From IMG/VR virus record IMGVR_UViG_3300042406_000117, positions 1 through 39,621 of that record: 39,621 bases of DNA; one strand, written 5' to 3'. Shown piece after piece: positions 1,217 to 28,893 of the stretch. The position numbers and the translations under genes were made by a program. Source of the stretch: a virus. The notes beneath the pieces are model-generated. The model was not told the DNA's origin. It did no database searches and saw only the letters and a list, made by a program, of their open reading frames with translations. Position 1 is the stretch's first letter; every line of letters begins with the position of its first letter.

Positions 1217-1882
1217 ATGAATATTGATTGGGAGTGGAAGCGTTGGGATGTCCGTGCCGATGGCAAGGTATTTTGGAAGCGTTGCAAAAATAGAGCGACT
1301 GATTCATGGGTGAATTGGGACTGGGCCATTAAAGAACAAGATAAAAGGAGAATTGCAGCAAGCAAGAGGGCAGTTGAAAAGCGGGATGAAATTAAAGCAT
1401 ATCAAAAAGAATACCGAAAAAACAACAATGAAAAAATAGCATTCCATAAATATTCTCATTACTCGAAAAATAAAGAAGCATACAAATCTAGGATTAAGTC
1501 TTGGATAACTGACAATAAAGAAAAATACCTCAATCGTATGAGGAGGTATTCAAAACATAAATCTGAGACAGATCCAATGTATGCCATGAGGAAAAGAATG
1601 AGAAGCAGGATGTCATATGCTTTAAGTGAATTTGGGTATACAAAAAAATCAAAAACATATGAGATGCTTGGATGCAGCTGGCATGACTTTGTCGCTCATA
1701 TTGAGTCTCAATTCACGGACGGAATGAACTGGAGTAATAGGGATCTGTGGCATGTTGATCACATAATACCACTTGCATCAGCAAAAAATGAAGAACGGTT
1801 AGCGGCTTTATTTCATTACAAAAACACAAGGCCGTTATGGGCCTTTGACAATTTAAGCAAGGGCTGTAAATTACCTAGTTGA
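1217..1882 (+). CDS. Free-standing HNH-type homing endonuclease
   Basis: A 221-residue protein; the ATG at 1217 is preferred over an upstream in-frame ATG at 1166, which would lie inside the phosphoesterase gene. The N-terminus (D-x-R-x-DGKVFW) resembles the start of the HNH protein at 14101 (DIRNDGRVFY). The middle is Lys/Tyr-rich and probably helical. The C-terminal motif WHVDHIIPLASA followed by HYKNTRPLWAFDN is the HNH signature of a phage endonuclease group (VDHIIPL ... N-x-x-PLWA-x-DN). It would cut DNA at a specific site and spread by recombination. It is A+T-richer than its neighbours, as expected for a mobile gene. The target may be the allele lacking the insertion near the phosphoesterase gene. 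Confidence 0.85.
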   Translation: MNIDWEWKRWDVRADGKVFWKRCKNRATDSWVNWDWAIKEQDKRRIAASKRAVEKRDEIKAYQKEYRKNNNEKIAFHKYSHYSKNKEAYKSRIKSWITDNKEKYLNRMRRYSKHKSETDPMYAMRKRMRSRMSYALSEFGYTKKSKTYEMLGCSWHDFVAHIESQFTDGMNWSNRDLWHVDHIIPLASAKNEERLAALFHYKNTRPLWAFDNLSKGCKLPS

Positions 1883-1930
1883 TCCTGTAGCCGATCACCA
1901 ACATCAACCAATTGTATCCGAACGACGACA

Positions 1931-2023
1931 ATGATAGCTGTAATCGCAAGCATAATTGTATTCGCCACCCTAGTTGTATGGGTGGTGATCTTCTGTTCCT
2001 CTAACCAAGACTACTGGTACTAA
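1931..2023 (+). CDS. 30-residue single-pass membrane peptide
   Basis: A very short open frame that starts MIAVIASIIVFATLVVW and ends CSSNQDYWY. Residues 2-21 are uniformly hydrophobic, enough for one membrane span, with a short polar C-terminus. The ATG follows an A/C-rich leader (GACGACA), and the stop lies three bases before the next start. It sits in the lysis-proximal operon, so a spanin- or antiholin-like role is conceivable, but nothing in the sequence proves this. Its shortness makes a chance frame possible; the clean spacing to both neighbours argues for a real gene. Confidence 0.5.
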   Translation: MIAVIASIIVFATLVVWVVIFCSSNQDYWY

Positions 2024-2026
2024 CCA

Positions 2027-2257
2027 ATGAAAACGAAACAAGCACTAGACGCACTAGACAAGGCAATAGCCCTAATCGGCACGGAGTTAGCCCGAAGTGA
2101 TGATGAGTTTACCATCACGGAATACGCTGAACGAGCCAACCTATCCATCCCCCAAGCCTGTAGCATCCTGCGGAAGAAAACCGCCGAGGGTCTGCTGGTA
2201 ATGCGTAAGAGCAGGGTCAATGGGAAGAGTACCAACATGTACTCTGTGGCCAATTAA
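2027..2257 (+). CDS. Small winged-helix DNA-binding protein
   Basis: A 76-residue protein. Residues 27-50 (FTITEYAERANLSIPQACSI) form a helix-turn-helix, and the rest (KKTAEGLLVMRKSRVNGKSTNMYSV) reads as the recognition-helix end and beta wing of a winged-helix domain. It is most likely a transcriptional regulator acting in the host cytoplasm. It is the last plus-strand gene before the opposing early block, and its stop lies about 48 bases before a hairpin at 2305. It is a candidate for binding the palindromes near 13.3-14.1 kb or 33.1 kb, but no target can be assigned from sequence. The start has no Shine-Dalgarno sequence (CTAACCAATG). Confidence 0.75.
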   Translation: MKTKQALDALDKAIALIGTELARSDDEFTITEYAERANLSIPQACSILRKKTAEGLLVMRKSRVNGKSTNMYSVAN

Positions 2258-2304
2258 GCACACATTCTGGCAACTTGTTGGCTAGGATGTCACACATTAT
2301 GTAA

Positions 2305-2327
2305 AAGTGGACATATTGTGTCCACTT
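2305..2327 (-). terminator. Hairpin between convergent operons
   Basis: AAGTGGACA and TGTCCACTT form a perfect 9-bp stem around a 5-base loop. Read on the minus strand the hairpin is followed by TTTTAC, so it best fits a terminator for the long minus-strand operon that ends at 2411. On the plus strand there is no T run. The rest of 2258-2410 holds no gene that I can support. Confidence 0.55.
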
Positions 2328-2410
2328 CTGCGTATGCTTACACAGCTGAAGATTTTAATCCCATCGAATTCGACGGGATTAGACGAGCGAGGCGTCTGGG
2401 GTGTTGTTGG

Positions 2411-2998
2411 CTAGATGCTACCCTGTTTTCGGTAGCTTGTCCAGTTGAAGTGTAATCCAACCCCGTTCTCGCGGATTCTATCCAGCACCGCCGCTGATAA
2501 TTTGGAGGCAAACTCCTCCCGCGAGTGGTTGGAAATGAGTATGGTCGGCCTTTCGTTTTGATAACGAGCGTCGATAATACTGGTGATCTTCCTGTCCTCG
2601 AAGGGAGTCTCGCCGCGCTCTTGGAACTCATCCAGCACCAGCAGTCCAGCGTCAGAGTACTTCTTGACCACCGATAGCTCCGATTGCTCCGAGTCTGAGC
2701 GGAATGTGTCCTTGATCTCCATGAAAAGGTTGACCGCTGTGGTATAAATAGCGGGTCTTTCCTTCTTGCTTGAGTTCCAGCCCATGCCTCCAACGGAATA
2801 ATGTGTGTCCTTTGGTACGCATTTCTTGGCTAGCTCGTAGGCCATGCGGGTCTTGCCCGTGCCATTCGTCCCGTACATCACCACAATGCCCCCAGAATCG
2901 ATTGTAGCGAGGGCTAGGCGGTAATGACCCCACCAGTCGTCTCCAATGGCTTCTGGGGCATCCTCGAAGCGTTTGGGGAATCCTTTGAGGGAGTTCAT
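2411..2998 (-). CDS. DnaC-like AAA+ helicase-loader ATPase
   Basis: A 195-residue P-loop ATPase. Walker A is YGTNGTGKT (about residues 42-50), Walker B is LLVLDEFQ (about 119-126), a sensor-1-like ILISNHS follows near 153, and the arginine-containing AVLDRIREN lies near 170, as in DnaC/DnaI/IstB loaders. These proteins load the replicative helicase onto DNA. No phage helicase is present, so the host DnaB is the likely partner. It is shorter than cellular DnaC (about 245 aa) because the N-terminal helicase-interacting part is very short. It is the last gene of the minus operon, and its start overlaps the stop of the preceding gene by 4 bases. Confidence 0.85.
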   Translation of the reverse strand: MNSLKGFPKRFEDAPEAIGDDWWGHYRLALATIDSGGIVVMYGTNGTGKTRMAYELAKKCVPKDTHYSVGGMGWNSSKKERPAIYTTAVNLFMEIKDTFRSDSEQSELSVVKKYSDAGLLVLDEFQERGETPFEDRKITSIIDARYQNERPTILISNHSREEFASKLSAAVLDRIRENGVGLHFNWTSYRKQGSI

Positions 2999-3342
2999 GC
3001 TCTGCGCCCCCTTCTGCGGAATGAGGCATCCAGAACATCCGTGAGCTGGTAGAACTGCCGCTTGGCCTTGAACTCGTCCCAGTTGACCTCCTGCGTAGGC
3101 TCGATCCCCTCCGACTCCTGCGTCCTAATTAGCCTTTCTACGGCACTAGAAAGCGAGCAATCTATCCTTTTGGCAAGGCTATCCACCCGCTTGAATGTCT
3201 CCACCGAGAGGGAGACCCGGATGTTAATCTTCTTGTCTTGGAGCTGGTTCCTTTTCCTCCCCGACCCGAAGCCGAATTTCCGCTTCTGGTTCAGCTTCCT
3301 GTTCGATGGTTGTTTTTCTAAAGATTCGTTCATAGTTTTCAT
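2995..3342 (-). CDS. Ribbon-helix-helix-like basic protein
   Basis: A 115-residue protein. The N-terminal ~36 residues are strongly basic (Lys/Arg/Asn/Gln-rich). The segment INIRVSLSVETFKRVDSLAK and the following RIDCSLSSAVERLIRT match a ribbon-helix-helix DNA-binding fold (beta strand, then two helices). The C-terminus is again basic (FRRRGRR). Its stop overlaps the helicase-loader start, so it may work with the loader at the origin or act as a repressor. The first 119 bases overlap, in another frame, the small gene 3224-3394. A start internal to the fold, without the basic arm, would avoid this overlap, but no ATG is available there. Confidence 0.65.
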   Translation of the reverse strand: MKTMNESLEKQPSNRKLNQKRKFGFGSGRKRNQLQDKKINIRVSLSVETFKRVDSLAKRIDCSLSSAVERLIRTQESEGIEPTQEVNWDEFKAKRQFYQLTDVLDASFRRRGRRA

Positions 3343-3394
3343 TGTATCGTTTGGTATCTACTCGTCTGGGTGAGTCGCCCTTGCCTGCACTCAT
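3224..3394 (-). CDS. Small conserved phage protein of the GKGDxPR type
   Basis: A 56-residue protein starting MSAGKGDSPRRVDTKRYNEN and continuing YERIFRK. This N-terminus matches a very common short phage protein (GKGD-x-PRPV ... FxxNYDxIF) of unknown function. The C-terminal half is acidic (EQEAEPEAEIRLRVGEEKE) and is read from the same DNA that encodes the basic arm of the next protein in another frame. The ATG follows AACCACC with no Shine-Dalgarno sequence. I consider it real because of the recognisable N-terminus. The acidic tail may be only what the overlapping frame allows. Confidence 0.7.
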   Translation of the reverse strand: MSAGKGDSPRRVDTKRYNENYERIFRKTTIEQEAEPEAEIRLRVGEEKEPAPRQED

Positions 3395-3417
3395 GGTGGT
3401 TATCGTACTGATTTGTT

Positions 3418-4053
3418 TTATTTACAAGACCATTTCAATGAGTCAATGTAAAGTTTCTCAATTTCATCTGCACTGGCGTTGTTTTTAATCCAGTTAGCCC
3501 TCCAAGATATTACCCTCACATTTCCCTTGGTATATCCAAGCTCTGGAATAATCTTGTCAAGTGATGGGCTTGTGTTCTTGGGTCCATTTGTTGATATTTC
3601 TATCCCTAGAACTGGACAAATCAAGGGTATTTGGATGTCGTTTATGTCAATATCAAACTGCAACCCACCAAGACTAGCCCTACTTTTTGCGGCATAAAGA
3701 AGAGATTTTTCTGGATTTTCTTTTTTGTGTTTTTTGACAAACTCATTTATCCTTGCCATATTTGCCCTTCTGTAGGCATCTTCGCAAGACTTGCAGTTTC
3801 TTGATTTACCATCTCTTCTGAAGTTGAAGTCTGACTTCAGTTTCCAGCTTTTGCACTTGTTGCACCAGTGATGTTCGTCGCTTGGCTGCTTTGGCCTATT
3901 AAGTTTATGATGGCATGGGTGGCATGACCTTATCCGATCAAGGCTGTCACATCTAACATTTGTCATTGAACCGCAATGTGGGCATTGACATTCGTAATAA
4001 GTCCTTTTTCCAATTCTAAACGGACCGCGGATTATGTGATCTCTCATCGCCAT
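3418..4053 (-). CDS. Zinc-ribbon homing endonuclease-like protein
   Basis: A 211-residue protein. The N-terminus has three Cys pairs (CQCPHCG, CHPCHH, CNKC...CKSC) suggesting zinc ribbons. The C-terminal half has CPVLGIEI, then SPSLDKIIPELGYTKGNVRV and ISWRANWIKNNA. This pattern (LDrIdp-xx-GYxxGNVxviSxxaNxiKnda) is typical of phage endonucleases of the His-Me/HNH type. It would nick or cut a specific DNA site and promote its own spread. It lies between two small conserved genes with only 3-23 bases on each side, as expected of an inserted mobile gene, and is A+T-rich. MetMAMRD offers two starts two codons apart. Confidence 0.8.
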   Translation of the reverse strand: MAMRDHIIRGPFRIGKRTYYECQCPHCGSMTNVRCDSLDRIRSCHPCHHKLNRPKQPSDEHHWCNKCKSWKLKSDFNFRRDGKSRNCKSCEDAYRRANMARINEFVKKHKKENPEKSLLYAAKSRASLGGLQFDIDINDIQIPLICPVLGIEISTNGPKNTSPSLDKIIPELGYTKGNVRVISWRANWIKNNASADEIEKLYIDSLKWSCK

Positions 4054-4056
4054 ACA

Positions 4057-4299
4057 TCACCTCATGGACTTGGACCCGCGGCATCTCCACTTTTTTCTGG
4101 AAAGCCTATTTGGTGAGTTTTCGTCGTCCTTCCAGTCGCCTTTGATCTTCGCGCTCCTTGCACAATAGCTGTCGCCTTTGGCCGTACCAGGCCGAATCCT
4201 ATCGCCGCCGTCTGCCGCTTTACCCGCCTGTCCGTACTTAACCGTCTTTGTTCTACCCGTCTCTGGGTTCTTTACTACTTTGGAAAATCTCTTCTTCAT
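4057..4299 (-). CDS. Basic conserved phage protein (DUF6321-like)
   Basis: An 80-residue, very basic protein. It begins MKKRFSKVVKNPETGRTKTV followed by KYGQAGKA, and ends with NSPNRLSRKKWRCRGSKSMR. The order KVKNPxTGRxxxVxYG ... GDxYCARS ... SPNxLSRKKWxCxGxKSM is a recurrent phage family that I associate, without a search, with DUF6321. Function is unknown; the Cys pair and charge would suit nucleic-acid binding. The start follows ATTTATACAT with no Shine-Dalgarno sequence. The gene for the zinc-ribbon endonuclease starts three bases after its stop. Confidence 0.75.
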   Translation of the reverse strand: MKKRFSKVVKNPETGRTKTVKYGQAGKAADGGDRIRPGTAKGDSYCARSAKIKGDWKDDENSPNRLSRKKWRCRGSKSMR

Positions 4300-4331
4300 A
4301 TGTATAAATTGTATCAGATTCTACGAGAAAT

Positions 4332-8027: not shown

Positions 8028-8837
8028 TTATTTGATTGCCCACTTGGGGAATGAGAGTTCTTGGATTCCTTCAACTGCCTTCGGAAACATCTTCTCCAAG
8101 ACACATTTCTGGTATTTGGCTATGGCGTTCATGTATCCGATCCGCCCCTGCTCGATGAAATCACCGGACAGGTTGACGATTGCGGTTTCATAAGGCGCAG
8201 ATGTTTCGACAAAGGCAAGCACAAAATTCGTGCGCTCTAGCCCTGTGGCGGCGTTGAATAGGTCGAGGTAGAGGGCGGCTTGCCAATGGTAGCCTCGGCG
8301 CACCACAAGGGACGCTAGGTCATCAGCCTTGCCGATGCTGGAGGTGGTCTTGATGTCCACCAAGTCATCCCCTGCCTGTGGCACAAGGTCGATCATCCCG
8401 CGCACCTTGGTTTCCCCGATCTGCGAGTAGACGGCAACCTCGGTCTTGTAGCCGGTGACAAACAACGGCTGGAGGTCTAGGTCATTGAGGATCGACTCCG
8501 CGCATTCGTTGGCGGCGTTGAGTTGGGATTGCGTGATGCAGACCTTCCCTTGTGCTACCATCGAATCCCGCCATTCCTGCGCCGCTTTGGTACGGAATGA
8601 GTCGTATTCACTCACGGCATAGGTTTCGGCGTACTCGGTAGGTGTGAGAGCAAGGCAATGCACAAGGCTTCCAAACTCCATCGCCGGCGTTGTCTCCTTC
8701 GGGCCGCTATGGAACCATTTCCAAGGGCTTTGGTCAAACTCCCAGAGCATGGATTTGGAGACATACCCGCCCAAGTTGGAGGGGCTTGCGCCCCCCTCGT
8801 AATACTTGCGCCCAAGGTTGTAGACTAGTTGGCTCAT
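8028..8837 (-). CDS. RecE-like PDDEXK exonuclease
   Basis: A 269-residue nuclease. SKSMLWEFDQSPWKW near residue 27, MEFGSLVHCLAL near 53, KVRGMIDLVPQAGDDLVDIK near 148-167 (catalytic D-x-n-D-x-K) and YHWQAALYLDL near 186 (QxxxY) follow the order of RecE/AddB-type PDDEXK exonucleases. It would degrade one strand of double-stranded ends to make a 3' tail for the RecT protein encoded just upstream. The start overlaps the recT stop by 4 bases, so the two are coupled. It is close in size to the nuclease domain of RecE alone. Confidence 0.88.
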   Translation of the reverse strand: MSQLVYNLGRKYYEGGASPSNLGGYVSKSMLWEFDQSPWKWFHSGPKETTPAMEFGSLVHCLALTPTEYAETYAVSEYDSFRTKAAQEWRDSMVAQGKVCITQSQLNAANECAESILNDLDLQPLFVTGYKTEVAVYSQIGETKVRGMIDLVPQAGDDLVDIKTTSSIGKADDLASLVVRRGYHWQAALYLDLFNAATGLERTNFVLAFVETSAPYETAIVNLSGDFIEQGRIGYMNAIAKYQKCVLEKMFPKAVEGIQELSFPKWAIK

Positions 8838-9622
8838 GGCTCCACCTCCTTGGCCATCTTCTCGAATGCCTCCGCGATCTTGTCAGCGTGTGGTTTCACG
8901 CTATGGGGCTTTGCGCTGTCCTTCTTGGGTGTATCCTCGACAATCGTCGCCTCGACCACCTCGACGGGTTCAGCTTTCGGTTCGGGTTCGGGTTCAGCCA
9001 CGAATGGGTTTGCCTTTGGTGTCACATTGCGCGGTGGTTCTGCAAAGTCCCGCACTTCGTCCTGCGTGTACATGCCCAGCGACATGTCCGAGGCATAGGC
9101 GCGTGACCAGAATGAAGCGGCGCGATAGCGGAGCATTTGACCAGGCATCGTGAGCCATTTTGAACCATTTTTGGTACTCCAACCCTCCTTCTTTGCCATC
9201 TCCAAGGTGATGCGTTCGCCCTTGAGTTCCTCGTTTGTTGCCATGTCACGCGCAACAGCGTAGCACCATGTCGGAGCCTCGTCGGAGTCGAACACGAAGC
9301 GCAGGGGCGAGAACTTCCCGCTTGCGTTCACCATGCCGATCAGCGCGGTAGCAGACCAGCTTGGCCGCCCGTGAATGATGGCAAGGTTTTGGCATACCAT
9401 CAAAGGGTCGAGCCTTGTCCGCTTTGCTACATTGAGGGCAATCGCGCAGTTCGCCACATTACCCGCAAAGTCCTTGGGGACTAGGGTTGACTTTGAGAGC
9501 ATCATCGCTTGCCGTTGCACAAGCTCGAACGCCTGTGTCTCGGCTTGTACCTGTGCCAGAATGCCCGTGTTTTGTGCTTCCTGCGGCACAATCGCATCTT
9601 GTTTTGTTTCGTCGTTTTCCAT
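8834..9622 (-). CDS. recT: RecT-family single-strand annealing protein
   Basis: A 262-residue protein. The ATG at 9622 (TAATACTATG) is chosen over one 10 codons upstream, which lies inside the preceding gene. The core has CAIALNVAKRTRLDPLMVCQ, IIHGRPSWSATALIGMVN and MLRYRAASFWSRAYASDMSL, followed by GMYTQDEV. These are the conserved blocks of the RecT family. The last ~60 residues are a Pro/Glu/Lys-rich tail, probably flexible. It anneals complementary strands in partnership with the RecE-like nuclease. Confidence 0.92.
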   Translation of the reverse strand: MENDETKQDAIVPQEAQNTGILAQVQAETQAFELVQRQAMMLSKSTLVPKDFAGNVANCAIALNVAKRTRLDPLMVCQNLAIIHGRPSWSATALIGMVNASGKFSPLRFVFDSDEAPTWCYAVARDMATNEELKGERITLEMAKKEGWSTKNGSKWLTMPGQMLRYRAASFWSRAYASDMSLGMYTQDEVRDFAEPPRNVTPKANPFVAEPEPEPKAEPVEVVEATIVEDTPKKDSAKPHSVKPHADKIAEAFEKMAKEVEP

Positions 9623-9626
9623 AGTA

Positions 9627-9815
9627 TTAGGCAAAGTGAAAGCCCACTTCAAGTTTCAGATCCTCGTAAGCCTCGGCAAGTTTCCTTGCACCAGACACTT
9701 TTAGGTAATACAGAATAGCCGCATCAGCGTCGATGTGTGCCATCTCTGCATCCGATTTGTCGATTTCCTCCAGCATAGCCAGAGCTTCTTCAATTTGTCG
9801 TTGGTTTGTTTCCAT
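9627..9815 (-). CDS. 62-residue helical hypothetical protein
   Basis: A small acidic protein, METNQRQIEEALAMLEEIDK followed by SDAEMAHIDADAAILYYLK, predicted mostly alpha-helical with a possible short coiled coil at the start. No family is recognised. It lies immediately upstream of recT (4-base gap) and starts from the A/C leader AACCAACAACG. The first 26 bases overlap the end of the upstream HTH gene in another frame. Confidence 0.6.
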   Translation of the reverse strand: METNQRQIEEALAMLEEIDKSDAEMAHIDADAAILYYLKVSGARKLAEAYEDLKLEVGFHFA

Positions 9816-14100: not shown

Positions 14101-14934
14101 ATGCATAAGAAGGGTGACATCAGAAATGACGGGCGGGTATTTTATAACAGGAATAAAAAGTGCATTGGGGGCGAGTACTGGATGACAATGGAGCAATTCT
14201 TAAGGACATGCGGTCACGACTATTACGAAAGAACTGCGGCGTATCGAGAATATTTAGCCGAAATGGCAAGAACAAAAAAAGACCGCGAACAAAAAAAGCG
14301 AGAAGATAGCATTAAGCATTACCACGAAACAAAGCACCTGACTATTAAAAAAAGGAAGGAATCTTACCGCAGGTATCATGCCAGAATGTTGCTTGATCCA
14401 GTTAGACTGGAGAAGTACAGGGCAAAACAAGCTCGGGCAAACAAACGCTACAAAGAGGAACGAGCCGAGAAAAGGGCTAAGCGTGATGCTGAGCGCAAGG
14501 CTAAACAAGAAGCACTACAAAAGATCAAGCAAGAACAAGCCGAGGCTAGGCGCATTGAAAAGGCTAAGATCGCTGCTGAAAAGGCGTTGGCTAAATCCTT
14601 GCGCCCCAAAAGGATTGCGCTAACTGAAGAGCAGCGGAAGGAGAAGAGAAAGCTTGAGAAGCGCAACTACAAGCATGTCCGCAGGGCTAGGATCAACAAT
14701 TGCGAGGTAAAGGCTACACCCAAAATGGTGGAGGACGCCAGAAAACTAGCGGGAGATCGTTGCTATTACTGCGGCAAGAAGGCCGAGTTAACCTTAGATC
14801 ATTTTGAGCCATTGGCCAAAGGTGGGGCGCATTGTGTTTCAAATTTTGTGTTTTGCTGCCATCCATGTAATTCTCGAAAGCGTGATTTGGACCCGTTTGA
14901 TTTTATGGCATCCAATCTAGCCGTTAGTTTCTAG
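14101..14934 (+). CDS. HNH endonuclease with long charged helical middle
   Basis: A 277-residue protein. The N-terminus (GDIRNDGRVFYNRNKK) resembles that of the HNH protein at 1217. Residues about 50-195 are an extended Lys/Glu/Arg/Ala-rich region (AERKAKQEALQKIKQEQAEA) likely to be a long helix or coiled coil. The C-terminus has DRCYYCGKKAELTLDHFEPL, KGGAHCVSN and CCHPCNSRKRD: a classic HNH nuclease with two CxxC zinc pairs, the DH catalytic pair and the N-x-x-x-R end. It is probably a free-standing homing endonuclease at the head of the plus block. A role in terminase-linked cleavage, as for other phage HNH proteins, is less likely given the distance from the terminase. Confidence 0.88.
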   Translation: MHKKGDIRNDGRVFYNRNKKCIGGEYWMTMEQFLRTCGHDYYERTAAYREYLAEMARTKKDREQKKREDSIKHYHETKHLTIKKRKESYRRYHARMLLDPVRLEKYRAKQARANKRYKEERAEKRAKRDAERKAKQEALQKIKQEQAEARRIEKAKIAAEKALAKSLRPKRIALTEEQRKEKRKLEKRNYKHVRRARINNCEVKATPKMVEDARKLAGDRCYYCGKKAELTLDHFEPLAKGGAHCVSNFVFCCHPCNSRKRDLDPFDFMASNLAVSF

Positions 14935-15185: not shown

Positions 15186-15440
15186 ATGCCAAGAGGCGAT
15201 TCATACGATCTTCAAGGTCAAGGCGGCGGACAAGTGTACTCTGGTACGGATGCGGCTACTGGCCCATTCCGTTGGGTTCAGACTGTGAACGACACTGTGT
15301 TTAGTGCGTTTGTTGCGCCTAACCTTACGAATGCTAGCACGAAGCTAATCACCATTACGATTCCTGCTGGGGTTGGCATTGGTGGTAATATTACGAGCTT
15401 CACGCTTACATCTGGAGCGGTTATTGCGTATCGTGCGTAA
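15186..15440 (+). CDS. Small beta-rich virion protein candidate
   Basis: An 84-residue protein: MPRGDSYDLQGQGGGQVYSG, then TGPFRWVQTVNDTVFSAFVA and ITSFTLTSGAVIAYRA. It is Gly/Thr/Ser-rich and beta-like, and resembles short proteins found in phage structural regions whose role is unknown. The ATG at 15186 follows TTACATT. Its stop overlaps the next ATG (TAATG), which couples it to the large nozzle-like gene. A minor head or tail component is the best guess. Confidence 0.65.
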   Translation: MPRGDSYDLQGQGGGQVYSGTDAATGPFRWVQTVNDTVFSAFVAPNLTNASTKLITITIPAGVGIGGNITSFTLTSGAVIAYRA

Positions 15441-17920
15441 TGTCCCAGTTTCGGTCTACTGGTGGGCTAGATGACTCGATTGCCGCCGATGGTGATCGTG
15501 GGTTCTTTGGTGTGAACCAGAGATTGCAGCTTAACCAGTTGGAGCCGGGTGAGGTTAGGGAAAGCCTTAATGGTCGCATGGAGGGCTTCTGGAGGCCGCG
15601 CAGGAGCGTGGTGTCTGTTAGCCCTGTACTGACTACTGGAGGCACTCCGTTGAACCTTCCGTTCCACATCCTTCCAAGCCCATTCTACTTGGCTATTACT
15701 GCTGTGTCGTATGCCGCAAATGTGGTAACGATTACCGTGGCTGGACATGGTTTGGCTATTGGGGTGGCTGGCAACCTTACGGTTAGCGGCATTACCTTTA
15801 CTGGCACGAACAACAATGGGGTTAAAGCTGTGACTGCGGCTACCGTGGACACATTGACCTTTCCTGTTACTGGCGTGACTGCTGTGGCACTAGGGGCGAC
15901 TCCAAGGATTACACAGATCGACATCAACGATGCCGCCGCCAGCGATGTGTTGGCATCCTGCATGTTCTCTGACCCTAACGAGTCCAACAAGGAATACATC
16001 ATTGTTGCGCTGGAGACTCTGGCGAAGAAGATCGACCTTTCTACACTGCCACCTCATACGGCAACAACCATCCCGTATCCCGTGGGAGCCACCGTTGGGA
16101 GTAACTGCGATATGTTGCAGTGCTTCGACAAGGTGATGATCATGCGGGATGGGCAACAAGCTCTTGAGTGGTATCCTAATGGAAGGGCTATTCTTTCTGC
16201 GTCATCCAACGCGACCGCTAGTCCAAATACCGTGGTGACAATGAGAGTTCGTGAACACGGACTTACGGCTGGGTCATCCGTGGTTATCGCTGGGCTTACT
16301 AGTGGCACTCCTCCTAATGGAACATTCACAGTGGCAACAATCGTCGACCAAGACTCATTTACCTTTGTGGCATCTGGGATTTCTACTAGCACCACATTTG
16401 TAACCACGGCGGCCACCATGACTGATGGGTTTACCCTGTCCCCCGGAGGTGCTTACACCCAGCCACAGACATTTAATGCTAGTGGAACCCATGTTACAGT
16501 ATCAAGCGGTTTGGTTTCCTTGACGATTACTGGCAACTTAACGATTTTCGCTGGTGATGTAGTTGTGATTTACGAGACAACCATTCCAGAGTTCACCTCG
16601 ATTGTTGGCAAACAGTTCCAAGTAACATCAGCGAGCACAACAAACATTCAGTTCCTTGCGCCAGTCGCCAACATATCGGCTAGCGGAAGCACTGGGCAGG
16701 TAGAGTTTGGCGGTAGGTTCACAGAAGGCGGTGGGTTCATGCACCAACCGGGTGCGCCTTGGGCCACCTACTTCCAGCGCAGGTTGTTCGTTCCGTTCTA
16801 CTACTCCCAATCTGGCACTTTTAGCGCACCAGTCTACACTAGCAGAAAGATTTCCGACGAGATCGCGGTTTCCGACCTACTAGACACTACGACATTCGAC
16901 CAGATCGAGAACCAGTTCCGTATTACTGGTGGTACTGCCGACTATGTGGTGGCGATGCATGGGTTCTACGACGATTCTTTGGTGGTTTTGAACCGCAATA
17001 GCATTCATCTTGTGGCGCAGACCCAAGGAAGCCTGTCTGACACCGTGGTCAAGGAGCTTACTGGCGAGGTTGGGTGCTTGGCTCGCAAGACGGTGGTCAT
17101 GCAGGCTAACAACCTATTATTCTTGGCCGACGAGGGCATTTACGGGCTTACCTTCCTTAACGATTACAACCTTCGCGGCACGGAGGAACCGCTTTCCAAG
17201 AATATCCAGCCGTACATTGACCGCATTAACAAGAATCTTGCGGGTGAATCGGTAGCGGTTTACTTCAACAACCGCTATTACATCGCAGTCCCGCTGGATT
17301 CTGTGGCTGGAGGTAATGATGCCCGTGGGAATAACGCAGTTCTGATCTACAACTTCTTGAACAAGGGGTGGGAATCGCTGGACACCTACGGAGATTCTAG
17401 GTTTCTGATCAAGAACTTCATCACGGCAAGTGCTGGGGTTCGCAATAACCTATATGCCGTTAGCTCTAATGGCGGCCTGCACCAAGTTGATGCCTCCGAC
17501 TCGTCCGAAGACCGCTTAAGCGTTACAAATGAAGACGCGAGCGTGGTCACCTCTGCTATTAACTCGTATGTTACTAGCCGTGGGTACGACTTCAAGACCC
17601 TTGAGCGCAAGAGGTTCACGGATGCCCAAGTGCAAATGCAGGCACTTGTTAATGAGCAAGCTGAGTATAATATTGCATTTGCCTCTGAAGATCCAGATTC
17701 ATCAGTAAATGTCGGAAGCACTACGACATTCCTTGGTGGAACCCCGCTTATTGCTAATGGTGTTGGTGAATCTGAAACCGCAAGCATCCGCTGCAGACTT
17801 GGCGGGGTTCGCGGCTATACTGGGACTATCACATTGACAAGGACTATCGGTTCACCTAAGATCCACTCTATTCAAGTGGCGGGTTCCATCACTAACAGAC
17901 AAATTCTATCACAAAAATAA
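15440..17920 (+). CDS. Large tail nozzle/stabilisation-like virion protein
   Basis: An 826-residue beta-rich protein. The N-terminus (LQLNQLEPGEVRESLNGRME, FWRPRRSVV) matches the start of phage proteins of the P22 gp10/T7 gp12 nozzle type (LxPGE ... N-x-R ... G-x-x-x-PRxG). Residues from about 440 on (YFQRRLFVPFYYS, ADYVVAMHGFYDDSLVVLNR, NLLFLADEGIYGL, AVYFNNRYYIAVPL, LIYNFLNKGWES) look like blades of a beta-propeller. Two inserted domains with AGHGL-x-x-G...TFxF character lie at about 86-150 and 255-320. It is probably the tail nozzle below the connector. The assignment is by pattern only. Confidence 0.65.
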   Translation: MSQFRSTGGLDDSIAADGDRGFFGVNQRLQLNQLEPGEVRESLNGRMEGFWRPRRSVVSVSPVLTTGGTPLNLPFHILPSPFYLAITAVSYAANVVTITVAGHGLAIGVAGNLTVSGITFTGTNNNGVKAVTAATVDTLTFPVTGVTAVALGATPRITQIDINDAAASDVLASCMFSDPNESNKEYIIVALETLAKKIDLSTLPPHTATTIPYPVGATVGSNCDMLQCFDKVMIMRDGQQALEWYPNGRAILSASSNATASPNTVVTMRVREHGLTAGSSVVIAGLTSGTPPNGTFTVATIVDQDSFTFVASGISTSTTFVTTAATMTDGFTLSPGGAYTQPQTFNASGTHVTVSSGLVSLTITGNLTIFAGDVVVIYETTIPEFTSIVGKQFQVTSASTTNIQFLAPVANISASGSTGQVEFGGRFTEGGGFMHQPGAPWATYFQRRLFVPFYYSQSGTFSAPVYTSRKISDEIAVSDLLDTTTFDQIENQFRITGGTADYVVAMHGFYDDSLVVLNRNSIHLVAQTQGSLSDTVVKELTGEVGCLARKTVVMQANNLLFLADEGIYGLTFLNDYNLRGTEEPLSKNIQPYIDRINKNLAGESVAVYFNNRYYIAVPLDSVAGGNDARGNNAVLIYNFLNKGWESLDTYGDSRFLIKNFITASAGVRNNLYAVSSNGGLHQVDASDSSEDRLSVTNEDASVVTSAINSYVTSRGYDFKTLERKRFTDAQVQMQALVNEQAEYNIAFASEDPDSSVNVGSTTTFLGGTPLIANGVGESETASIRCRLGGVRGYTGTITLTRTIGSPKIHSIQVAGSITNRQILSQK

Positions 17921-26060: not shown

Positions 26061-26410
26061 TACCAGAACCAGAATCAAGATACGCTGATTACGCTAAGGA
26101 TGGAGGCAACCTCGTTCGCCATTACATGGTCGAGCATGACGGCATTAAGCACAAGTGCCACACGCTGTGCTACGCTTCGTATCTATCGGAAAAGTTTGAC
26201 GCTAAGATTTGGAATGTGGTGCTGGAAAAGTTCGTCAAGCCCTTCATTGGCGTATGCAAACATTGCAAGAAGCGTCGAGAGCTTCACTTTGTTGACGGGA
26301 ATAGAGGATCATTTCCAGCCGAAGAGGATGCGTTTTGTTGCGAGGAGTGTGATAGCGTGTATCACATCAAAGACATCCTAATGGAGACTGGTGCATATAA
26401 AACAAACTAA
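26057..26410 (+). CDS. Cys-rich protein between terminase genes
   Basis: A 117-residue protein. The C-terminal half holds GVCKHCKKRRELHFVDGNRG and FCCEECDSVYHI: two CxxC pairs forming a zinc ribbon. The N-terminal half (NLVRHYMVEHDGIKHKCHTL) has further His and Cys. It is translated with overlaps on both sides (ATGA before; TAATG after). A packaging accessory role is inferred from its position; the family is unknown. Confidence 0.6.
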   Translation: MIPEPESRYADYAKDGGNLVRHYMVEHDGIKHKCHTLCYASYLSEKFDAKIWNVVLEKFVKPFIGVCKHCKKRRELHFVDGNRGSFPAEEDAFCCEECDSVYHIKDILMETGAYKTN

Positions 26411-28893
26411 TGCAGTGGCGCAAACATCCAATCCTTCAGCCTCCCAGCGATGACGAGGTGGCATTGATGGAGCCAGATGATCTCATTGAGCTTCATCGGA
26501 TTTACCATGAGGCCATCGAGAACGCCGAAAAAGATCCATTCCGATACGGGTTTAGGCTTCCGCATTGGGAGAAGGCTGAGGAGCAATTAGCGCAAGTCTC
26601 TGAGGTTCTGGCACTTGGGGGAAATCGTTGTCTTGCCCCAGAGCAGGAGATCTATGATCCAGTCCTAAAGCGTAGTAAGCGCGTTGACGAGCTTGGATTT
26701 GATTTCCACGTACACGCTTGGGATGGCAAAAAAGTGGTTATAGCCAAAGCACAGCCACCCTTTAGGAAAGACAAGCAGGGAATTTACGAAGTTGTTTTAG
26801 ATAACGGTGAATCATTTCGTTGTTCAAAGTCTCACCTTGTCCTTCATAAGTTAGGGTGGATGGCAGTTGGAAACATCAAGCTGAACGACGAGCTTTCAAG
26901 CCCATTCTGCGCTTGCCATCCTCAGTCCAGTTCGGAACGCAACCCTTTAGAGTCACCTCAAGATGGCGGGCATTGCTCTCAAACAGCTCAAGATTCTCAA
27001 TGCGATTATCGTCTTTCACTCCGTTCTTGTGGTGAACAACTTCCGTGCGGGTCAAATACCGACCAAGATGTTTCTCCATTATTAGACGATGCTCAAGGAT
27101 ATAGCGCGTGTGCTTGCGAGCGTTCGGGTGGTTTGGGCAATAAAGCTCAATGTATCCGTCCTTGTTCACGATTCTGCCGCCTTTCCATTCGGGATGTCCT
27201 TCGCCGCTTCGTGGCCCTGTCCGCTGGCATTGTATACCGTGCTTTCTACAAATCTTGTAAATCAACTTCGCGGTCACTCGTGGATCTAGCTCCTTTGCCA
27301 GCTTTTCCGCGATATTCGCTTGAGTCCATCCTTCAGCAATCCAAAGGCGTATTTGATCTACTGGGTAAGTTATTGAGTTGTGCTTCGGCATACCGACACC
27401 CTATCTATTCCCGCCGAGTTGTCAAGATCAATTACCTCCGAGAAGATTATGTCTGGGATTTCCATGTGCCAGTTTACAACAACTACATTGTAGCTGGGGT
27501 TCCCCATCACAACTCGGGCAAAACTGCGTGGGGTTCTTACTGTGTTGTCAAAGCTGCCATCGAAAACCCAAAGTCGGAGATCTTCTGTTTTGCTCAGACC
27601 TCGGAGGTAAGCATCCGCCAGCAACAAAGCGCAGTATGGAACTGGTTGCCGCATGAAATGAGGACAAAGCAAACCTCGGCTAATGCTTACATCTCGTACA
27701 CGAAGAAGAACGGGTTTACAGACAACTCGTTGATCCTGCCCAATGCTTCGCAGATTATCTTCAAGACCTACTCTCAGTATCAGAACAACCCAACTATCCT
27801 AGAAGGTGCGGAGCTTGGTAGCCGTGACCCCCAGTGGCATAACATCGGGGTATGGTTGGACGAGTACCTTCTAGGAAACGAGCTTATTGACACCTTGCGC
27901 TTCCGTCTTGCTACCCGCAACTCCAAGATGCTGGTGACATTCACCCCGATTGACGGGTGGACGGAAGTTATTAAGGAATACTTAGATGGTGCTACAAGCG
28001 TCCAGAGCGTCGAGGCTGAGCTGCTCAACGGCGAGCTTGTCCCCTATGTCCAAAGGAGTAAGAAGCGCAATGCCAGCGTCCATTACTTCCATTCCAAGGA
28101 CAACCCTTTCGGTGGCTACGAGCGAATTAAGGAGACTTTGGTTGGAAGGCCTCGGGAGGAGATCCTAATTCGCGCGTACGGGGTTCCAGTTAAGTCCCAC
28201 GCCACCAAGTTTCCCAAGTTCAATAAAGAAGTCAATGTTGTCCAGCCATCAGAGATCCCAACTACGAATGTTACTCGCTATCACATCATTGACCCAGCGG
28301 GTGCGAAGAACTGGTTTATGGCTTGGATTGCTGTGGATGCGTCTGGTACATTTTGGGTATATCGTGAGTGGCCGGGTGTCGATGTAGGCGACTGGGCTGA
28401 GTGGAAAGGTGGTAAGTGGATGCCGGGACAAGGGGCTAAAGGACAGGGTTTTGGTATTCGTGACTACATGGACTTGATTACCGATCTTGAGGGTGACGAG
28501 AAGGTCTTTGAGAGGCTGATTGACCCTCGGCTTGGAGCGGCAAAGTACCAGTCTGCGGACGGAGCTAGTAGTATTATCGAGGATTTGAACGATTCTGGCA
28601 TGGTTTGCATACCAGCTCCAGGGTTAGACATTGACGATGGGTTGCAGGCTTTGATCGGGAAAATGGCATTTGATACAACTATCCCGTCAGATTCTGTCAA
28701 CCGACCGCATTTCTATGTCTCTTCCGAGTGCGAGAACATTATCCAAGCCTTGAGTGAATACACGGGTGACGGGGGCTTGAAGGAAGCATGGAAAGACCCA
28801 GTCGATGTTCTGCGTTACGCCGCCATTGCTGGAATAGATCATGTTGACGAAACCAGAAATCTTGCTACAAGACAGGGAGCAGGAGGCTACTAG
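26410..28893 (+). CDS. terL: Large terminase, interrupted by an intein
   Basis: An 827-residue precursor. Residues 1-73 and 369-827 form a 532-residue large terminase (packaging motor ATPase and nuclease). Ligating them yields the P-loop ALGGNR+SGKTAWG. IGVWLDEYL is the Walker B segment, YHIIDPAGAKNW and IDPRLG mark the nuclease acids, and DPVDVLRYA lies near the end as in other terminases. Residues 74-368 are an intein: Cys1 (CLAPEQEI), a block B (FRCSKSHLVL), a block F (VWDFHVPVYNNYIVAG) and the end VPHHN before Ser+1. The unspliced protein cannot have a working P-loop, so splicing must precede packaging. Confidence 0.9.
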   Translation: MQWRKHPILQPPSDDEVALMEPDDLIELHRIYHEAIENAEKDPFRYGFRLPHWEKAEEQLAQVSEVLALGGNRCLAPEQEIYDPVLKRSKRVDELGFDFHVHAWDGKKVVIAKAQPPFRKDKQGIYEVVLDNGESFRCSKSHLVLHKLGWMAVGNIKLNDELSSPFCACHPQSSSERNPLESPQDGGHCSQTAQDSQCDYRLSLRSCGEQLPCGSNTDQDVSPLLDDAQGYSACACERSGGLGNKAQCIRPCSRFCRLSIRDVLRRFVALSAGIVYRAFYKSCKSTSRSLVDLAPLPAFPRYSLESILQQSKGVFDLLGKLLSCASAYRHPIYSRRVVKINYLREDYVWDFHVPVYNNYIVAGVPHHNSGKTAWGSYCVVKAAIENPKSEIFCFAQTSEVSIRQQQSAVWNWLPHEMRTKQTSANAYISYTKKNGFTDNSLILPNASQIIFKTYSQYQNNPTILEGAELGSRDPQWHNIGVWLDEYLLGNELIDTLRFRLATRNSKMLVTFTPIDGWTEVIKEYLDGATSVQSVEAELLNGELVPYVQRSKKRNASVHYFHSKDNPFGGYERIKETLVGRPREEILIRAYGVPVKSHATKFPKFNKEVNVVQPSEIPTTNVTRYHIIDPAGAKNWFMAWIAVDASGTFWVYREWPGVDVGDWAEWKGGKWMPGQGAKGQGFGIRDYMDLITDLEGDEKVFERLIDPRLGAAKYQSADGASSIIEDLNDSGMVCIPAPGLDIDDGLQALIGKMAFDTTIPSDSVNRPHFYVSSECENIIQALSEYTGDGGLKEAWKDPVDVLRYAAIAGIDHVDETRNLATRQGAGGY
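26629..27513 (+). mobile_element. Intein inside the terminase P-loop (295 aa)
   Basis: The element lies in frame, from Cys74 (TGT, 26629-26631) to Asn368 (AAC, 27511-27513), with Ser as the +1 residue. Blocks A, B, F and G are recognisable; the penultimate His is present (H-H-N). The splicing domain is about 82 residues at the front and about 40 at the back. The block between (residues about 156-328) is not an endonuclease in this frame. It is a Ser/Cys/Gln/Leu-rich stretch (SSSERNPLESPQDGGHCSQT) that mirrors the HNH gene on the opposite strand. Confidence 0.88.
26876..27391 (-). CDS. HNH homing endonuclease, antisense within the intein
   Basis: A 171-residue protein on the minus strand. Residues 12-60 (VDQIRLWIAEGWTQANIAEK, LIYKICRKHGIQC) look like a helix-turn-helix. 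HPEWKGGRIVNKDGYIELYC is followed by TRYILEHRLIMEKHLGRYLT and EVVHHKNGVKDDNRIENLEL, the typical HNH_3-type phage homing endonuclease (E-H-R-x-x-[ML]-x-x-x-L-G-R ... V-H-H-x-[ND]-G-x-x-x-[DN]-N-R-x-x-N-L). The gene lies wholly inside the intein, between blocks B and F. It starts with ATG at 27391 without a Shine-Dalgarno sequence. It must be expressed from a separate minus-strand transcript and presumably cuts intein-free terminase genes. Confidence 0.9.
   Translation of the reverse strand: MPKHNSITYPVDQIRLWIAEGWTQANIAEKLAKELDPRVTAKLIYKICRKHGIQCQRTGPRSGEGHPEWKGGRIVNKDGYIELYCPNHPNARKHTRYILEHRLIMEKHLGRYLTRTEVVHHKNGVKDDNRIENLELFESNARHLEVTLKGCVPNWTEDGKRRMGLKARRSA

Follow-up and report, generated by a model that had tools for sequence, protein, structure and literature searches.

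The large terminase gene (TerL) in the virus record IMGVR_UViG_3300042406_000117 provokes a question: what is the long insert that interrupts its Walker A loop, and what does the cysteine-rich middle of that insert encode? The window analyzed here, 39,621 nucleotides long, covers positions 1 to 39,621 of that record. An earlier note, made from the letters alone, had read the insert as an intein placed exactly in the P-loop of the packaging ATPase and had expected its precise absence from intein-free relatives. The intein, its site and the expected absence all held up; what that reading overlooked is a gene for an HNH endonuclease, which lies in the middle of the insert on the opposite strand. 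We consider it very probable, on the sequence evidence set out below, that a mobile, cis-splicing intein occupies the TerL Walker A loop, and that its homing endonuclease is encoded separately by an antisense HNH gene, which overlaps the intein completely and is expressed independently.

The first part of this answer concerns the insert itself. It is flanked by GGNR and SGKT within the Walker A loop, begins with CLAPEQEIYDP and ends in VAGVPHHN, directly before the Ser of the C-extein. Removing residues 74–368 from the translated open reading frame (ORF) joins GGNR to SGKT, and the spliced length given in the earlier note follows by arithmetic (827 − 295 = 532 residues); in no related terminase were the 295 residues found as an ordinary domain. 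Taken alone, the intein segment passed the Pfam profile Intein_splicing (PF14890) with 36.8 bits against a cut-off of 35.8; its match to TIGR01445 reached only 15.9 bits, under that profile’s cut-off. The residues needed for splicing are in place: C1, H69 (the block B His), the terminal HHN and the +1 Ser. Across 24 diverse inteins, C1, H69 and N295 were invariant, and some members terminated in QKN or NRN. When an AlphaFold2 model of the intein was compared with solved structures using Foldseek, the Ssp and Npu DnaB mini-inteins ranked first (E = 6.5e-7 for Ssp). The insert is a predicted cis-splicing, class 1-like Hint intein, and it is reasonable to suppose that the unspliced TerL precursor would be unable to act as an ATPase.

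The middle of the intein tells a different story on each strand. In the sense frame, profile searches returned no family besides Intein_splicing, and no endonuclease family, for this region; the predicted local distance difference test (pLDDT) scores of the AlphaFold2 model were very low there (blocks of 23–50 for amino acids 96–193 and 196–256). On the minus strand, the 171-amino-acid product matched Pfam HNH_3 (2.6e-11; 43.4 bits, cut-off 24.8) and phrog_20891 (5.7e-30). The HH...N...N...H columns are conserved in the HNH alignment, with the motif residues kept across lineages, and the protein was modeled with a mean pLDDT of 84. A second structural aligner placed I-HmuI at the top of its matches to this model, at a modest level (Z 6.8, root-mean-square deviation 4.1, 81 residues). 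A profile search of the PDB also returned a row for 8vd6 (“CAP REPEAT”), which we set aside as uninformative, given that it spanned 25 positions and that no stretch of it passed alone. The HNH gene sits between the two Hint halves, the location at which endonuclease domains of inteins are normally found (PMC6801210), only on the opposite strand. The cysteine-rich character of the intein’s middle arises because that part is the HNH gene read in reverse; the cysteines of this sense “linker” follow from HNH codons.

Selection on the two overlapping frames was assessed in a set of close relatives, comprising 40 sequences with the 885-bp intein plus the window (41 in all). Both the intein sense frame and the antisense HNH frame were open in all 40 relatives. 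In the N-intein, diversity at sense codon positions 1, 2 and 3 was 0.075, 0.047 and 0.365, respectively; in the overlap, the corresponding values were 0.030, 0.121 and 0.020, such that the peak shifts to the third position of the HNH codons. The ratio of nonsynonymous to synonymous rates (dN/dS) was 0.107 for the HNH frame vs. 1.87 for the sense linker, in a naive calculation that is biased where genes overlap. The positional diversity pattern is independent of dN/dS, as is a second test based on stop codons. Stop avoidance can be tested here because, in this phase, an HNH codon of the form xTT, xCT or xTC followed by a codon beginning with A gives a stop in the sense frame; the expected counts were obtained by shuffling synonymous HNH codons. 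Each of 28 diverse inteins had 0 sense stops, where 5–11 were expected.

The same test was applied to a wider sample. IMG/VR was searched with the HNH alignment. The 80 loci that resulted are the ones nearest to the query HNHs and do not sample HNH genes at random; a few of them had already been found via the intein query. In 80 of 80, the HNH gene lay antisense within a long open ORF, always in a single phase. These loci together had 0 sense stops vs. 444 expected, while the other two phases contained 6.0 and 9.7 stops on average. By comparison, HNH relatives outside inteins (n = 71, at least 90 amino acids) contained 627 stops vs. 716 expected, with no comparable avoidance. We conclude from these sequence comparisons that the HNH frame is under strong purifying selection and that the linker is not conserved as a protein, yet its frame is kept free of stops. 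In a rival reading, the intein would be an ordinary one, its middle would encode an accessory or degenerate endonuclease domain in the sense frame, and the reverse ORF would be incidental; after all, inteins normally have in-frame endonucleases, and the sense frame is open here. That reading is already contradicted, and we regard it as extremely improbable: the sense middle has neither a family match apart from Intein_splicing nor a predicted fold (pLDDT 23–47) and shows the higher of the two dN/dS values, whereas the reverse frame matches HNH significantly, is strongly constrained and recurs throughout the 80 relatives.

Does the element move? The allele survey covered the 80 closest relatives of the C-extein, among which at least 47 alleles were empty (with an uninterrupted GGNRSGKT), 19 were full and 6 were mini, the latter having a 136-amino-acid mini-intein without HNH at the same site as the window’s intein. 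A near-identical empty allele, L106, lacks exactly 885 bp relative to the window, the very absence that the earlier note had asked for. Counted from the insertion site, L106 and the window agree at every base of the intervals −38 to −2 and +4 to +2846; besides the intein, they differ at −1 (CGC in L106, CGT in the window) and at +1 to +3 (AGC and TCG, respectively). In a second near-isogenic pair, L161/L006, the sequences agree throughout the intervals −1541 to −8 and +4 to +896 and differ at −7 and −1 to +3. The changes in both empty/full pairs are confined to −7 to +3. A recent gain of the intein with a very short co-converted tract fits these sequences best; gain is favored over exact loss because loss would also require four or five specific base changes. 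All 41 full alleles had TCN as the +1 Ser codon, and 40 of 49 empty ones had AGC or AGT (Fisher P = 6.6e-17, with relatedness ignored), a bias that could stem from co-conversion or from resistance of AGC alleles. We infer homing of the intein from the allele distribution, and this distribution, the near-isogenic pairs and the purifying selection on HNH together form the pattern expected of a selfish homing element. In the empty allele L118, whose P-loop lies before position 3001, the loop reads GGNSGKT; the Arg codon beside the insertion site is gone, and this variant is perhaps a scar or an escape form.

Two other explanations bear on these alleles. A free-standing HNH gene might have landed by chance in a mini-intein, the sense frame being kept open only because TerL loss is lethal, and might now be decaying and no longer homing. 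Homing genes usually decay once fixed, and the HNH-less mini-inteins at the same site would suit such a history. The strong purifying selection on HNH among the 41 sequences and the retention of its motif residues across lineages argue otherwise, as do the near-isogenic empty/full pairs, which imply that movement has been recent; this account is therefore distinctly improbable. The earlier note had suggested a timing or redox switch; in this alternative, the phage would use the intein to delay packaging, and selection would favor it for that function. Some inteins splice conditionally, and here an intein beginning with Cys1 sits at the ATP-binding loop. We find this very improbable, in that most close relatives have no intein, the distribution looks selfish, and no redox-specific feature was identified in the element, the linker cysteines being a product of the HNH codons. 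A selfish homing intein remains the reading that we prefer.

Candidate signals for expression of the HNH gene lie within the C-intein coding sequence. In the roughly 50 bp that precede the HNH start, diversity at sense third positions was 0.006, vs. 0.213 in the remaining C-intein (Mann-Whitney P = 5e-4). A TTGACA box lies in this stretch; the −10-like site 16 bp past it reads TAGGGT in the window (a weak site), TATTAT in L067 and TATCAT in L069, and this spacing would place the transcript start near the HNH ATG. Signals at the group level were sought over 53 HNH clusters, using nulls that held the sense protein constant. Shine-Dalgarno matches exceeded the null (3.8 vs. 2.8, with starts fixed; P = 5e-5), a looser null giving 3.0 vs. 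0.78, and promoter scores were likewise above the null (8.4 vs. 7.8; P = 8e-6). Shine-Dalgarno-like sequences (AGGAGG/GGAGGT) stand directly ahead of the HNH starts in L043 and L072. An antisense GGAGGT also occurs in the region of 27436–27441 (−) of the window, some 45 bp ahead of the HNH ATG and too distant to serve it; the motif is conserved at the corresponding place in the window, L067, L069 and L071–L074.

Several observations weigh against an independently expressed antisense endonuclease. The window’s own lineage has a weak −10 box and no good Shine-Dalgarno sequence ahead of the HNH ATG. A sigma-70 consensus scan of the region found 2 sites vs. 2.4 expected, none of them at the HNH start; the argument for an antisense promoter therefore rests on the frozen synonymous sites, the conservation of TTGACA and the signals over the HNH clusters. 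A Foldseek search of the PDB with the HNH model returned nothing significant, structural matches of the HNH core are weak, and the dN/dS values carry the bias stated above.

How might such an element operate? The HNH protein would come from a separate antisense transcript that does not depend on the late expression of TerL, and it would cut empty alleles of terL at the codons for the P-loop. This DNA would be a good homing target because phages cannot easily alter the P-loop. Recombination would then copy the element into the cut allele, possibly with the involvement of the phage’s RecT-like and exonuclease VIII-like proteins. TerL would be produced with the intein, which would then splice out and discard the unstructured linker; that linker would be the price of the overlap. 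An exonuclease VIII-like gene (8028–8837, −) adjoins a RecT-like gene (8834–9652, −) in the window, and this phage recombination pair could serve homing.

The layout is not peculiar to the window. A recognizable intein C-terminal junction was present in 78 of the 80 IMG/VR loci, the pattern failing in L219 and L256. Most insertion points were at GGNR/SGK (slashes mark junctions), and others separated Lys from Thr or lay at related sites of the P-loop. In L078 (3082–4047), an antisense-HNH intein is found at ILRG/C...N/SNRAGKT, four residues before the usual insertion point. Among GTDB genomes, 6 of the 78 HNH loci examined had the antisense HNH within an intein; of the remaining 72, the stop comparison above covered the 71 with a length of at least 90 amino acids. 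Two antisense-HNH inteins lie in putative helicase-like P-loop hosts, as judged by sequence: L264, from an Acidobacteria metagenome-assembled genome (MAG), with HN/SGKTPVMLG, and L269, from Polaromonas sp. CG9_12, with HN/TGVGKGREI. Only L286 and L271 were stop-free among the 71 non-intein GTDB HNHs, and in L271 just 1.5 stops were expected. L286, from a Nitrospira MAG, has its HNH at 3001–3258 (+), antisense within a methylase-like ORF at 1364–4330 (−) that contains VVTDPPYF. It shows no recognized splice junction, has the phase seen in the inteins and contains 0 stops vs. 8.3 expected.

Isolated phages carry the arrangement as well. A search with the intein protein gave only weak matches in isolate phages (E of 0.04 or worse), and it was the HNH protein query that found them. 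Pseudoalteromonas phage PHS3 (L261) and Pectobacterium phage Ymer (L259) both have an antisense-HNH intein with 0 stops; two free-standing phage HNHs had 17 and 3 stops in the same test. The full intein-bearing TerL ORF of PHS3 (KX912252.1) spans 541–2667 (−), where the GenBank annotation has a shortened terminase (541–1716) plus a separate HNH gene. In the annotation of Ymer, the intein-bearing ORF is called hypothetical and the HNH gene is omitted. On the HNH tree, an unconstrained quick tree needs 10 changes for the antisense HNHs; the tree in which they are held together has a higher likelihood and is not rejected (p-AU 0.70), making a single origin possible for these sequences. The window’s element very probably belongs to a widespread and distinct class of inteins that have a fully overlapping antisense HNH gene as the homing endonuclease. 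Members of this class would mainly occupy the Walker A loop in phage terminases, where they use two or more positions, and would sometimes reside in helicase-like P-loop proteins; the endonuclease would be expressed separately from the late host gene, and the evolution of either strand would be limited by the other.

The features of the locus are collected in the table below. The terminase assignment of the TerL ORF by profile is weak (Terminase_6N, 4.9e-4; 20.3 bits, under the cut-off of 22). The ORF ahead of it matched Pfam Sf6_terminase at 1.8e-4 (under the cut-off) and phrog_1482 at 5.1e-6. Elsewhere in the window are a second, unrelated HNH gene (14101–14934, +; 277 amino acids, Pfam HNH_5/HNH) and an ORF of 826 amino acids (15440–17920, +) with an endosialidase beta-barrel domain match under threshold, perhaps a tail spike.

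Coordinates of the intein-bearing terminase locus in the window (aa, amino acids)
Feature	Position	Strand	Remarks
Small-terminase-like ORF, Sf6-type helix-turn-helix	25509..26060	+	precedes TerL
TerL precursor ORF	26410..28893	+	827 aa; 532 aa if intein spliced out
N-extein, C-terminal end ...LALGGNR	26410..26628	+	unbroken in empty alleles
Intein, 885 bp, 295 aa, TerL residues 74–368	26629..27513	+	Cys1 ... His-Asn, +1 Ser
N-terminal half of Hint splicing domain, about intein aa 1–94	26629..26910	+	AlphaFold2 block pLDDT 93–98, aa 1–90
HNH homing endonuclease gene (predicted), 171 aa	26876..27391	−	helix-turn-helix in N-terminal part, HNH core in C-terminal part; codon position 1 opposite sense position 1
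Sense linker, intein aa 96–256	26914..27396	+	mostly reverse reading of HNH gene; no fold predicted
Synonymously frozen stretch upstream of HNH start, within C-intein coding sequence	27394..27441	−	probable antisense promoter/leader
C-terminal half of Hint splicing domain, intein aa 257–295	27397..27513	+	AlphaFold2 block pLDDT 95–98, aa 261–295
TAGGGT, −10-like position	27398..27403	−	3/6 matches; 6 bp before HNH ATG
TTGACA, −35-like box for HNH gene	27420..27425	−	also upstream of HNH in L067/L069, with better −10
C-extein, N-terminal start SGKT	27514..28893	+	+4 to +1380 identical to empty allele L106

Both terminase P-loop inteins (PMC5050341) and other-frame HNH genes without a splicing domain (PMC11855218) are already known. 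The former include TerL1-a and TerL1-b of mycobacteriophages (Kelley et al. 2016, PMC5050341); TerL1-a is inserted between Lys and Thr, and TerL1-b is one residue away. They resemble the window’s element as cis-splicing inteins of sporadic distribution in the TerL Walker A loop. They differ in that the available part of that description mentions no opposite-strand endonuclease, and in that active endonucleases were expressed from the intein constructs. The ShiLan element is an insertion that keeps the host gene of the phage open and conceals an HNH gene in a frame other than that of the host gene; it is presumed to home (Arsenault, Gosselin, Gogarten 2025, PMC11855218). Its HNH and that of the window are about 38% identical over 72% of the query. 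However, the window’s HNH gene occupies the opposite strand and lies within a full Hint intein, whereas ShiLan has no splicing domain (PMC11855218). The ShiLan type, characterized by an alternative frame, presumed translation from the host transcript and no splicing domain, is therefore not what the window contains; the Nitrospira locus L286 is possibly an antisense counterpart of it.

Dassa et al. reportedly described, in 2009, fractured genes in which the intein is split and a free-standing endonuclease gene lies between its two halves. There, as here, the endonuclease is separate from the splicing polypeptide; in those genes, though, the endonuclease lies between two genes, while the window has one continuous ORF of 827 amino acids, as do relatives with an ORF complete on the locus, and the endonuclease overlaps it wholly. 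Canonical inteins such as PI-PfuI share with the window the placement of endonuclease material at a conserved point between the Hint halves (PMC6801210). In them, the endonuclease is in frame and part of the same polypeptide; in the window it is outside the intein polypeptide, encoded on the minus strand with its own start codon. Full-text searches of open-access literature returned no description of an intein with an opposite-strand endonuclease.

The arrangement would explain the odd, cysteine-rich “linkers” of some terminases and annotation errors such as those in PHS3 and Ymer. It also offers an unusually clear and recurrent case of antisense gene overlap, in which the overlap is complete, there would be two protein products, and dual coding can be measured. 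It suggests a route by which a homing endonuclease might escape its tie to a late structural gene, and both the near-isogenic natural pairs and the cultured phage PHS3 are available for direct tests. To the known intein layouts, in which the endonuclease is in frame, absent or accompanied by a split intein, the window and its relatives would add one with the endonuclease on the opposite strand.
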